A stretch of DNA of 64,000 nucleotides from Leptolyngbya sp. PCC 6406 (lineage in GTDB: Bacteria; Cyanobacteriota; Cyanobacteriia; Phormidesmidales; Phormidesmidaceae), in contig NZ_KI913949.1 in the NCBI RefSeq assembly GCF_000332095.2, positions 1,477,286 to 1,541,285 of the forward strand. The letters are read 5' to 3'. The translations under genes were made by a program, and so were the position numbers. The notes beneath the pieces are model-generated. The model searched no databases. It was not told where the DNA came from and worked only from the letters and a program-made list of their open reading frames with translations. Below, piece after piece: positions 57,475 to 62,810 of this stretch. How positions within the stretch are numbered: position 1 is the stretch's first letter; every line of letters begins with the position of its first letter.

Positions 57475-57784
57475 GGGAGGGGTATCGGGTTTTGGGTACT
57501 CGGGAATGGATGAGTTTTGAGTTCTTAGTTTTGAGTTTTGAGTTCTTAGTTTTGAGTTTTGAGTTCTTAGTTTTGAGTTTTGAGTTCTTAGTTTTGAATG
57601 GGTTGTTCAACTTAAAATTCACAACTCAAAATTTGAAACCTCATTATATCAAGTCTGTTTAATTAGCCACAAAAATCTATTGGTTGCTTAGTAGGGGCGA
57701 ACCGCTGTTCGCCCTGTTCAAAATTGTGGGCAATTAGCCGAAAACGATATTAATTCTGATGTTCTGGGATCCAGCACCTAACAC
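57475..57784. repeat. Spacer downstream of cpcL with four 21-base tandem repeats
   Basis: 310 bases. Four perfect copies of GTTTTGAGTTCTTAGTTTTGA occupy 57514-57597. Nearer to cpcL is a perfect hairpin, GGGCGAAC-CGCT-GTTCGCCC (57695-57714), which might slow transcripts leaving the antenna operon but lacks a T-run on either strand. No gene is supported. Confidence 0.75.
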
Positions 57785-58498
57785 CTATTTCGGCGCTGCT
57801 ACAACAATCAGCGTGGCCAGCAGTACAGCGACCGAGGTGGCAGGCACCAGAAAGATGACGCGGCGATAGACTACGGCGCTGCGATCGACGATGTCGGGGA
57901 TGGGCGATCGCAGTTGTCCAGAGCGCAGCAATTGATCAAGGTGGTGACTGTCGTAGCGGGCCATGCGCGCAAAGGGCAACTCTCCCTGAGCCCGCTGAGG
58001 CAGAATGCGGCGACGTTGGTGGGGCACGCAGGCATCGCCAAAATGATTTAGGTATTCTTCGCTGTCGAGCAGAGCATTCACAAATCCGGCCAATCCTTTC
58101 GTCGCTAGCACAATTGACCAGGCTAGAGGCTCTCGCTGGTTATAGATAGACCGCCCCAGTACCCGCTGAATGCACAGCTCGGCAAAACGATAGTTGCTGT
58201 TGGTGTCAAATACCAGCCGCCGAAACGAGTCCGACAGCAGCAGACCGCGAATAAAATCGCGCACCGTCAGTTGGCCATTACACAACTGTGACTCCAGCGC
58301 CACTTGGCGATGGGCTGCAATCATCTGCTGTTCGTTGAAAATCTGTCGATAGGCCGCTCGGATGAGGTCATCCATCTCGACACTATCTAGCGCATTATCC
58401 AAGGAAAACACCCTTGGTTGCTCATCCCCAGGGATTTCAAAGTTCTGAACCCGCTGGTTTTGGCTGGAGGGGGAGTAGGAGAGGAGAGGGAGGGTCAT
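57785..58498 (-). CDS. cpcL: CpcL-type phycobilisome linker with membrane anchor
   Basis: 237 residues. Residues 1-185 are the phycobilisome linker (PBS_linker_poly) domain: the CpcG-like N-terminus LPLLSYSPSSQNQRVQNFEI followed by PGDEQPRVFSLD, then IRAAYRQIFNEQQMIAAHRQ, LTVRDFIRGLLLSDSFRR and LVLGRS-type segment IQRVLGRSIYN. Instead of a core-binding tail, the C-terminus ends in one hydrophobic helix (IFLVPATSVAVLLATLIVVA, about 214-233). That is the CpcL (CpcG2) form, which attaches rod-only phycobilisomes to PSI. No phycocyanin genes adjoin it; it follows the PsaL-fusion gene by 97 bases. Confidence 0.9.
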   Translation of the reverse strand: MTLPLLSYSPSSQNQRVQNFEIPGDEQPRVFSLDNALDSVEMDDLIRAAYRQIFNEQQMIAAHRQVALESQLCNGQLTVRDFIRGLLLSDSFRRLVFDTNSNYRFAELCIQRVLGRSIYNQREPLAWSIVLATKGLAGFVNALLDSEEYLNHFGDACVPHQRRRILPQRAQGELPFARMARYDSHHLDQLLRSGQLRSPIPDIVDRSAVVYRRVIFLVPATSVAVLLATLIVVAAPK

Positions 58499-58595
58499 TT
58501 TGGGTGAATGGGTGAATGGGTGAGAGAGGTGGGTTTTGACTTCTTAGCTTTGAGTTTTGAATTGATAACTAAAAAATCCAAAACTCAAAACTTAC

Positions 58596-60158
58596 CTACC
58601 CAATTCCCGCCCGCTGAATCTCAAGCAAAATAAAGCAGGCAAAGGTGACGCCGCCGAGGCCACCGATCAGGAAGCCGGATGTAAACAGGCTCCAGTCTTT
58701 GTAGGTGGCGATGTTGCCCGGAAGTTCGCCTTTTGGTTTGGCGCGCCCCTGGAAGACGGCACCGCCGTAGAGGAAGAGACAGACACTGAGAATCACCACT
58801 AGGCCAGAGGCACCGCCGAAACCGGCAGGGAGAGCAACATCGGTGTTGCGCAGAGGGCCAAGCTTAAGGAACGGCCCTAGTAGCAGGTAGCCGTGGGCCA
58901 TGCCGATTTCTAGACCTCGGGTGATGGGAGCGAGCCCTGGGCGGTAGATGGGTAGGTTTTTGACCCAGGTGAGGGTAAGGCCGCTGCTGTTGAGGGGGGT
59001 AGCTAGGTTGCCCTGTTGGGGGTCTTGGCGGAAGGGTTGAACGATGCCCTGGACTAGGGGGCCGTTGTTGAACTGGGTGTCACCGTAGAGGGCATCGGGG
59101 TTAAACCGCATTTGGCTGAAGTTGTACCCGGCGGCAATGGCCCGCGATCGCAGCCCATGCCAAAAGTGCCCCGCTAGTAGCAGACTGGCAAAAACAACGT
59201 GAAACAGCATCAGCCAGGTGCGGGCGGTGATCGCCCCGCCTACTGTCGTCGTAGCGACTGGGCCGTAAAATACCTCTGGGTAAACGGTGCCATTCACCCA
59301 GACAAAGTAAGCGGCAAAAAAGCCCATATAGGCTAGAGCCGCCTGACTGTAGGCCAGGTAGGCTTCCCCCGACCAGACAAACAGCCCTTTGGCCCAGGGG
59401 GTGGGCTCAGTGCGGATGTGCCAAATGCCGCCCAGGATAGCGATTGCCCCAATCCACAGGTGACCGCCCACCACATCTTCCAGATTATTCACCGCTGCCA
59501 TCCCCTGGAAGCTCCAACCATTGGGGGTGATGCCCACCAAGTAGCCAAAAATAGTCAGGGGATTGAGGGTGGGCTGGGTAATTTGGCGCACATGAGACAG
59601 AGCTGGATCGTAGAGGCCGCCGAAGGTCGTTGCCTTCACCACCAGTAGCAGCGCCCCCACCCCCAGCAGCACCAGATGAATCCCCAAAATCGAGGTCATC
59701 TTGCGGCCATCCTGCCAGTCGTAGCCAAAGCCCTTGGGGTCGAGCTTATCTGGGCCAAGGACCGTATGGTACAAGCCCCCGGCTCCTAGCACAGCGGAGC
59801 TAATTAAATGCACCACCCCAATTACAAAATAGGGATAGGTGCTAGTAATTTCGCCCCCGGTCCCCACCCCAATGCCTAGATTGGCCAAGTGGGGCAGCAG
59901 GATTAGCCCCTGATCGTACATGGGCAGGGTGGGGTCGAATCGGGATAACTCGAACAGGGTCATGGCCCCGGCCCAAAGCACAATCAATCCGGCATGGGCG
60001 ATGTGGGCTCCCAGCAGCTTGCCCGACAGGTTGGCAAAACGGAAGTTGCCTGCCCACCAGGAATAGGGGTTCAGCGAGTCTGCCACATAGTTGGTGGCCA
60101 GGGCCGTATCGGTGGAAAAGCCGAGGGGCTTGAGGGGATTTGCTTCAGTAACGGTCAT
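58596..60158 (-). CDS. CP43-like chlorophyll antenna fused to PsaL
   Basis: 520 residues. Residues 30-345 are a six-helix CP43-like antenna: [97 protein letters not shown] and [20 protein letters not shown], with paired histidines that bind chlorophyll. The large lumenal loop of true CP43 is missing. Residues of about 372-520 are a complete PsaL ([57 protein letters not shown]). Such fusions are known in some cyanobacteria. Start two bases after the previous gene's stop. Confidence 0.93.
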
Positions 60159-60160
60159 GG

Positions 60161-61192
60161 CTAGCTCACCTGCCCTCGTGTTGACTGCACGACTCTACCT
60201 TCCTTGAAGCTGTAGCCCGCTGCCCGCAGGGCGTGGAATAGGTGTCCCTGTAAGAAGAAGAACCCTAGCCAGAAGTGGGCATTGGCCAACCACACCCGCG
60301 CCGTCAGGGCACCATCGATGCTGCGAAACACCGGGAACCGGTCAAACACCAACTGCAACGGTGGCCCATAGAACTCGGTGGGAAATACCAGGGTATTGAC
60401 CGACACAAACAGCGTGGCCACGAAGGCCATCAGGCTCACTGCCCCGATACTGTAGGAGAGATAGGCTTCTCCCGACCAGACAAACAGCCGCTTTGCCCAG
60501 GGCCAAGGAATGGTGCGCATGTGCCAGATGCCCCCCAGCATGCACATTAGCCCCACCCAAATGTGACCACCGACAGCATCCTCTAGGGTGTCCACACTGG
60601 CCAGCCAAAACCGACCTTGGGTGCCAAACAAATAGCCAAAAATCGTCAGCGGATTCAGGGTGGGATTAGCAATCACCCGCACCTGCTGCACCGTTGGGTC
60701 GTACAGGCCGCCAAAGATCATGGCCTTCGTCACTAGCAAAAAGGTTCCCAGCCCCAGCAGCACCAGGTGAATGCCCAAAATCGTCGTCATCTTATCGGCA
60801 TCGTCCCAGCGATAGCCAAAGAAGGAAAATTTACCCTCCAGCTTGGCGGGGCCTCGCAGGGCATGGAAAATACCGCCCGCCCCCAGAAAGGCCGAGCTAA
60901 TCAGGTGCAGCGCCCCAATTACAAAGTAGGGGTAGGTATCGACAATCTGGCCCCCTTCACCCACCCCCCAGCCCAACCGGGCCAGGTTCGGCAGCACAAT
61001 TAGCCCTTGCTCGTACATTGGGCGCGCCGGGTCAAACCCCGCTACTTCAAACAGGGTAATTGCTCCGGCCCAGAATACGATCAGCCCCCCATGGGCCACA
61101 TGGGCACCGAGCAATCGCCCCGACAAATCCACCAGCCGAGCATTACCCGCCCGCCAGGGAATTTGAGATGTTGATTCCATCGTGATGGTCAT
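60161..61192 (-). CDS. IsiA-like CP43-type chlorophyll-binding protein
   Basis: 343 residues, six helices. It is the most IsiA-like of the three: [40 protein letters not shown], the loop [20 protein letters not shown] and the last helix [20 protein letters not shown] match the IsiA pattern. IsiA forms rings of antenna around PSI under iron stress. The long CP43 lumenal loop is absent. The next gene begins two bases downstream, so they are co-transcribed. Several Met codons occur at the start ([10 protein letters not shown]); 61192 is the first. Confidence 0.9.
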
Positions 61193-61271
61193 AGATAGAG
61201 ACTCCTTATTGAATTCAGTCTTTGAGTAGAGAGTGGATGGGTGGATGGATGGGTCGGCTGATTGTTCGGAC

Positions 61272-62333
61272 TCACACCCTCACACCTGCCATCCCCGACT
61301 CCTTCGCCATCACGTCAAAGAAAGTGCCCCAGGCTATGCCTCGGACGGCGGCGCGGGCGCGGCAGGCGTGCCAGAGGTGGCCAAGTAGGGCCAAGAAACC
61401 GAGTCCGGCGTGGACGCTGGCCAGGGCAGCGCGGACAGAGGGAGTACCGTTGACGGGGCCGTAGAAGACACTGGGGTAGGCGATGTCGTTGACGGAGACA
61501 AAAACGGCGACGCTCAGACCGGCGATCGCTAGGGCTCCCAGGCTATAGCTGAGGTAGGCTTCGCCCGACCAGATCAGGCGCTGATCGGCCCAGACAAAGG
61601 GTTTGGACATAATGTGAAAGAAGCCGCCGCCCAGGCAGAGTAATGCGACCCAAAAGTGACCGCCCACCAGATCCTCCAGGTTGTCAACGCTGGCCATGCC
61701 CGCCGGGGTCCAGCCCTGGGGGCCAAAGCCAAACAGGTAACCGAAAATGCGGATCGGGTTGAGGTTAGGTTGTACCAGCCGCACTTGATCCACTAGGGGA
61801 TCGTAGAGGCCACCAAAGTACGCTCCCTTCAGCACCAACAGCAGCGCCCCAATGCCCAGCAGCATTAGGTGAATGCCTAGGATGGTGGTCATCTTGCTGC
61901 CATCATTCCAGCGGTAGCCGAAGCCTTTCTCATCCAGCCGCTCTGGCCCCAGGACGGCGTGGTAGATGCCTCCGGCTCCCAACACGGCGGCGCTGATCAA
62001 ATGCACCATGCCAATGGCGTAGTAGGGGTAGGTGTTAAGAATTTGGCCCCCTGCCCCGATCCCTAGGCCCAGGGTGGCCAGATGGGGCAGCAAGATCAGT
62101 CCTTGGTCGTACATGGGTAGCGCTGGGTCAAACTGGGACAGCTCAAACAGGGTCATGGCCCCGGCCCAAAAAACAATCAGCCCAGCGTGGGCCACATGGG
62201 CACCGAGCAGTCGCCCGGATAGGTGTTTGAAACGATCATTACCGGCTAGTAGGGGGGCACCGACCTGATCGGTGACGCGAAACGACCAGCCTAGAGATCG
62301 CAGCAAAGGCATCCAAAATAATCCTTGTGCCAT
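61272..62333 (-). CDS. Pcb/CBP-type CP43-like chlorophyll-binding protein
   Basis: 353 residues from ATG 62333, six helices with chlorophyll-ligand histidines ([120 protein letters not shown]). It differs from its IsiA-like neighbour by a shorter fifth-to-sixth-helix loop ([20 protein letters not shown]) and a distinct N-terminus. First gene of the antenna run, 79 bases before the IsiA-like gene. Start at 62333 has GAGG upstream; an earlier codon at 62363 would add ten residues. Confidence 0.9.
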
Positions 62334-62810
62334 CAATACATCCTCACATCCTCTCTGGGGCAATCATGGGTATTGTTATTGATACTAAAAGTCAACAGTA
62401 ATGATTGAGACTTTGGCCCTAGACCAACCTTGTCCAACAGGACGGAAGTAGTTCATAAAGCAATCGCTGACGCGACAGAACAGGATGGATGATTCTAAGA
62501 CGAAAGATTCACGACATGCCTTAAGGCATGGGCTTGGCCATAGACCCTGCTCCATCAACCCGAAGACTCACGCTTAACCGATCCAGCTCTATTGACTTAC
62601 GATGTCAATAAGTATCTCACCATAGATCGGATTTATTCTCAATAAGTTGCCAATTAAGTTTTATTGCCTTTCAGTAGCGTGGGGGGTAGTATCCCCGATG
62701 TCAGGGATCTGGATAAAACAAAAAAATGGACAAATCCCTTGCGTCGATATTGGGTCGGTGGTGGGGTGTTATTCAATTACACGTCCCTCATATAGCAGCC
62801 ATATCGCAGC
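62334..62810 (-). promoter_or_regulatory. Leader/promoter region of the antenna operon
   Basis: 477 bases between the CHAT gene and the first antenna gene, with no supported gene. Inverted repeats visible: GTATTGTTATTGATAC (62370-62385), TATTGAC-N7-GTCAATA (62590-62610) and TTATT-CTC-AATAA (62633-62645). The last resembles cyanobacterial Fur boxes (TTCTCAATAA type). A TTGACT (minus strand, about 62390) could be a -35 box. Iron control would fit IsiA-like genes, but is unproven. Confidence 0.5.

Follow-up and report, generated by a model that had tools for sequence, protein, structure and literature searches.

The isiA-isiA-isiA/psaL-cpcL locus

The window analysed here is a 64,000-nucleotide stretch of the Leptolyngbya sp. 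PCC 6406 genome, in which a gene encoding a CP43/IsiA-like antenna joined to PsaL is the third member of a cluster with the order isiA-isiA-isiA/psaL-cpcL (Table 1). The position given for the fusion gene in the initial annotation was borne out and needs only its strand: the plus strand frame over the gene is full of stops, and the coding frame on the minus strand is open throughout, with no stop or frameshift between the antenna and PsaL parts. The start listed for the first isiA of the cluster is a TTG at 62363, but an ATG at 62333 is more plausible.

Table 1. Features of the cluster and its upstream region (window coordinates).
Feature	Position	Strand	Size	Remarks
Putative promoter/operator block	62617..62644	-	28 nt	TATTGAGAATAAATCCGATCTATGGTGA; upstream of the cluster; within the genome common only to the isiA1 promoter
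isiA paralogue (isiA2-like)	61272..62333	-		First gene of cluster
isiA paralogue (isiA3-like)	60161..61192	-	343 aa	Second gene of cluster; 2 bp upstream of the fusion
isiA/psaL fusion gene (CBPV / IsiA4-type)	58596..60158	-	520 aa	Stop included
CP43/IsiA-like antenna domain	59109..60071	-		Residues about 30-350, with six membrane helices and lacking the large lumenal loop of CP43
Clade-specific linker motif	59070..59105	-	12 residues	Residues 352-363; conserved among long-type sequences and absent from the Anabaena-type clade
Complete PsaL domain	58599..59045	-		Residues 372-520; three membrane helices; 11-residue motif intact
cpcL/cpcG2-type phycobilisome rod linker	57785..58498	-	237 aa	C-terminal helix hydrophobic; separated from the fusion upstream by about 97 bp

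The gene downstream of the fusion carries the phycobilisome linker domain PF00427 at residues 39-162 and ends in a hydrophobic C-terminus (VIFLVPATSVAVLLATLIVVAAPK). Its best match was the NCBIfam 'exception' model for CpcG2, NF058512, at 228.7 bits against a cut-off of 420 and over the linker domain only; since the cut-off was missed, we name the gene CpcL-like by its architecture and not as a member of the model. Besides this protein the genome encodes two CpcG proteins, one of which has a hydrophobic tail while the other lacks it, so the CpcL of the cluster is an extra copy. On both sides of cpcL (window 57500-57650 and 58520-58590) there are AT-rich short repeats (TTTTGAGTTCTTAG and similar), which look like a dispersed simple repeat.

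Domain structure of the fusion protein

The initial annotation had described an antenna followed in frame by a complete PsaL of three helices, and both the Pfam matches and the AlphaFold model agree with this and with the domain limits it gave. The Pfam PSII profile covers residues 32-303 (whole-protein E 1.2e-72) and the PsaL profile (PF02605) residues 373-513, the latter match spanning profile positions 2-147 of 150 (E 2.7e-52); the PsaL domain is thus essentially complete, full-length and in frame. The model, of moderate confidence (pLDDT 71, pTM 0.55), has six and then three membrane helices. As to the type of antenna, the fusion scored 365.7 bits with NCBIfam TIGR03041 (IsiA/Pcb antennae), above the cut-off of 335, and 376.7 bits with the psbC equivalog, below its cut-off of 603.05. 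Solved CP43 chains match the fusion in two pieces, and the ∼110 residues lying between these pieces are missing from it.

The two halves had been described as joined by a Pro/Gln linker. In the alignment that segment instead falls on the N-terminus normally found in free PsaL, which contains QP..DPQ.GN-like text similar to the Pro/Gln stretch of the fusion. The true linker corresponds approximately to residues 348-371 and, in the clade to which this fusion belongs (below), is ∼20 amino acids longer than in other fusions. Trp333 is the counterpart of the PsaA-contacting Trp313 of Anabaena IsiA2 and is invariant in the alignment, and among the fusions the PsaL core motif RGLE-GMAHGY hardly varies. 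The initial annotation had proposed a comparison of PsaL trimer contact residues as a check, and one position was compared. At the trimer calcium-ligand position (Asp70 of PDB 1JB0) the fusion has Asn, as do 5 of the 14 free PsaL rows; fusions and free PsaL each include sequences with Asn and sequences with Asp, and the position was rejected as a trimer marker because it is not diagnostic.

Among all solved structures, the top match of the fusion was Anabaena IsiA2 (7y3f_1), along both domains. The same chain was the top fold match of the model, with 58% identity in the fold alignment and an rmsd of 24.9, the two domains being misplaced relative to each other in the single-chain model. Our search of solved structures found none from the long-type clade.

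Stand-alone psaL and other antenna genes of the genome

The genome (5.78 Mb, 99.96% complete) contains one stand-alone psaL, an intact gene of 160 amino acids at C1:4258787-4259212, which adjoins an apparent psaF (read from the sequence; the candidate has no NCBIfam match). The initial annotation had suggested that the fusion might replace free PsaL and that a stand-alone copy be sought elsewhere in the genome; the intact copy rules out replacement of the psaL gene. Ordinary isiA1 and true psbC genes are also present. A further IsiA paralogue, of 474 amino acids with a long C-terminal extension, lies beside two allophycocyanin-like genes (L006:1150-2574; genome C1 about 59.6-61.0 kb), an arrangement consistent with the low-light operon of IsiX and far-red allophycocyanin (LoLiP) that PMC10038336 describes.

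Distribution and descent of the fusion

A fusion-length PsaL frame was found in at least 23 of 386 sampled genomes of the phylum, each of which has at least one further PsaL match (of known size for all but five). Within the family, 13 of 39 genomes have a fusion-length frame, one with an in-frame stop, and all 13 have a free-length psaL. The stop is a single TAG in the frame at G418:C280:19441-19887, possibly reflecting a pseudogene or a sequencing error. Recurrence in dozens of genomes argues that the fusion is neither chance nor an assembly error. Since psaL is intact here and the other fusion genomes have a further PsaL match, the fusion is an addition to psaL and not a substitute for it; the idea that it had displaced psaL was rejected for this genome and for the fusion-bearing genomes counted.

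At nearly all loci of the genome collection that encode the long form of the fusion (about 520 amino acids), the order isiA-isiA-fusion-cpcL is kept. The exceptions are L043, with no cpcL within 8 kb downstream, and L011, for which only 1.5 kb of downstream sequence is available. No cpcL was found near the short-form loci within the flanking sequence covered.

In a tree of PsaL domains that included 14 free PsaL rows, one branch parts all fusions from free PsaL (support 99/97), and the same branch was recovered with 31 free rows (99/92). This fits a single ancient fusion event, as far as unrooted PsaL trees can indicate one. Independent, repeated fusions were considered and are not supported, given the single branch between fusions and free PsaL in trees for which no root was inferred. 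The fusion studied here falls in a clade of 24-26 sequences (100/99 and 100/100), and the Anabaena type lies outside it.

A quick tree of the antennae makes the cluster's first isiA the sister of the long-type fusions (SH-aLRT 90), which suggests that one copy arose by duplication and lost the PsaL half, or that the change went the other way; the isiA at 61272-62333 may therefore be a fusion that lost its PsaL. Close relatives of the fusion antenna that have no PsaL domain were also seen in Richelia, Scytonematopsis and Calothrix (L079, L080, L082 and L083), near other isiA genes. Because the antenna tree places these relatives within the fusion clade, it is likely that at these four loci the PsaL half was lost.

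Upstream block and regulation

With three mismatches allowed, the 28-nt block upstream of the cluster has exactly two sites in the 5.8 Mb genome, one before the cluster and one before isiA1; as the pattern was drawn from these same two sites, the informative part of the result is that there is no third. A reversed control of the pattern had zero matches genome-wide. A similar block occurs in the upstream regions of many relatives and, in most of them, scores above shuffled sequence. These observations point to a shared iron-stress promoter of the cluster and isiA1. The classical 19-bp Fur consensus upstream of the cluster was no better than background, and standard promoter and terminator scans were likewise at background level. 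The counterpart cluster is reported to be iron-regulated in Trichodesmium and JSC-1 (PMC12090762); in Trichodesmium, on iron addition, the three isiA genes and cpcG2 fall by over 300-fold and 30-fold, respectively (PMC12090762).

Opposite each gene of the isiA family the Rfam IsrR model gives a match (window 59540-61910 and locus L004). An IsrR antisense RNA opposite the three isiA genes of the cluster was discounted. The psbC gene gives the highest score (162.7 bits), which indicates that the match follows coding conservation and is not a proven antisense RNA.

Proposed role and alternative explanations

We consider it very probable that the fusion is an iron-stress IsiA paralogue whose PsaL domain acts as an anchor, competing with PsaL for its site on photosystem I (PSI) and keeping PSI monomeric. 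Under iron starvation the isiA-isiA-isiA/psaL-cpcL cluster would be switched on, and in newly made PSI monomers the fusion would take the PsaL site, competing there with the ordinary PsaL that the genome still encodes. The antenna half would then lie beside PsaA, where it would block the contacts through which trimers or tetramers form, and would start a partial IsiA belt built with the paralogues. The neighbouring CpcL would add a phycocyanin rod to the same PSI. This study itself shows how the gene is built, that its domains are complete, that psaL is retained, that the cluster is conserved, that the promoter block is shared and to which family the protein belongs. That PsaL is replaced, that PSI is monomeric and that iron regulates the genes is taken from published work on homologues, and we infer that this protein acts in the same way and that CpcL works on the same particle. 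In the Anabaena structure (7Y3F) IsiA2 has nine membrane helices, PsaL is absent and the C-terminal domain of IsiA2 is in the PsaL position (PMC9938196); PSI with IsiA2 is monomeric and has six IsiA subunits (PMC9938196). The initial annotation had expected an antenna fixed at the PsaL interface with effects on trimer formation. This holds for the homologue Anabaena IsiA2 (PMC9938196), but the condition set there, that the fusion replaces free PsaL, does not hold for the psaL gene. That the solved homologue lies outside the clade of the fusion and has a shorter linker counts against our explanation. Participation of CpcL in the fusion-bearing particle is plausible given that, in Anabaena under iron deficiency, CpcL has been detected together with both monomers and dimers of PSI, as reported in PMC11165356, which cites Shimizu et al. 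2023.

A different placement, in which the fusion attaches next to a PsaL already in place, by PsaL-PsaL contact, and replaces nothing, has been proposed for Chro_2988 of Chroococcidiopsis (PMC8827656), and the additional ∼20 amino acids of the long-clade linker would allow it. The solved Anabaena structure, however, shows replacement (PMC9938196), and the near-invariance of RGLE-GMAHGY is what would be expected of a domain seated in the PsaL site, so we regard binding beside PsaL as improbable. Far less credible still is that the fusion is the only PsaL of the cell, placing a fixed antenna on all PSI: the completeness of the PsaL domain would permit this, but it is refuted at the gene level by the intact stand-alone psaL and, in the other fusion genomes counted, by a second PsaL match in each.

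As to the controlling signal, the abundance of Chro_2988 in white light exceeds that in far-red light about 80-fold (PMC8827656), which indicates that the trigger of such fusions is not always iron. The light-dependent abundance of Chro_2988/2989 (PMC8827656) would favour control mainly by light here too; the promoter block common to the cluster and isiA1 and the iron regulation of the Trichodesmium counterpart stand against this, and we think it unlikely. Returning to an iron-induced anchor that competes with PsaL, we would add, as a tentative and rather doubtful extension, that the long-type linker motif and the co-encoded CpcL might be a docking pair, giving a PSI monomer with an IsiA belt and a phycocyanin rod at the PsaL position. 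If so, iron starvation would produce a combined membrane-plus-rod antenna that is not seen in the solved Anabaena particle.

The occupant of the PsaL site sets the oligomer state of PSI and its antenna size, and the fusion gene is a clear and complete case of an antenna able to compete for that site. The gene is real and complete, and known biology explains it well; its design is known and not new, and the idea of an antenna at the PsaL site is already published (PMC3610870, PMC9938196, PMC12090762). What is new here is modest, namely the long-type clade, its linker motif, the near-constant cpcL neighbour and the shared promoter block. The aspect that merits pursuit is this clade, with its particular linker and its rod-linker partner.

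Comparison with known systems

By its sequence the fusion is a protein of known type, CBPV or IsiA-PsaL (IsiA4-type), alongside CBPV, Anabaena IsiA2 and the IsiA4 of JSC-1 and Trichodesmium. What defines the CBPV class is an IsiA/CP43-like antenna that bears PsaL as its C-terminal domain (PMC3610870), and the PsbC-PsaL hybrids of this class, such as Nodularia Nsp37500, share that arrangement with the fusion; the Nodularia members in our set differ in lying outside its clade and in their gene neighbourhood. IsiA2 of Anabaena sp. PCC 7120 (All4002, PDB 7Y3F chain 1) is likewise a single chain of antenna plus PsaL with nine helices and the same domain order. Unlike the fusion, it is outside the clade in the PsaL trees, its shorter linker is without the 12-residue motif, and its near relatives in our set have no cpcL within the flank covered. 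Chro_2988 of Chroococcidiopsis thermalis, compared by description only, is an IsiA-PsaL homologue that is also thought to affect PSI oligomers (PMC8827656), but its reported change is with far-red light (PMC8827656). The JSC-1 cluster of Leptolyngbya, again compared only by its description, has a further isiA5 after cpcG2 (PMC12090762), whereas none was seen here. The order isiA2-isiA3-isiA4-cpcG2 has been described in both Trichodesmium and JSC-1 (PMC12090762), and it is IsiA4 of Trichodesmium erythraeum (Tery_2485) from which the fusion shows no clear difference, the Trichodesmium sequences in our set sharing with it the clade, the linker motif and a gene order that ends in cpcG2/cpcL.
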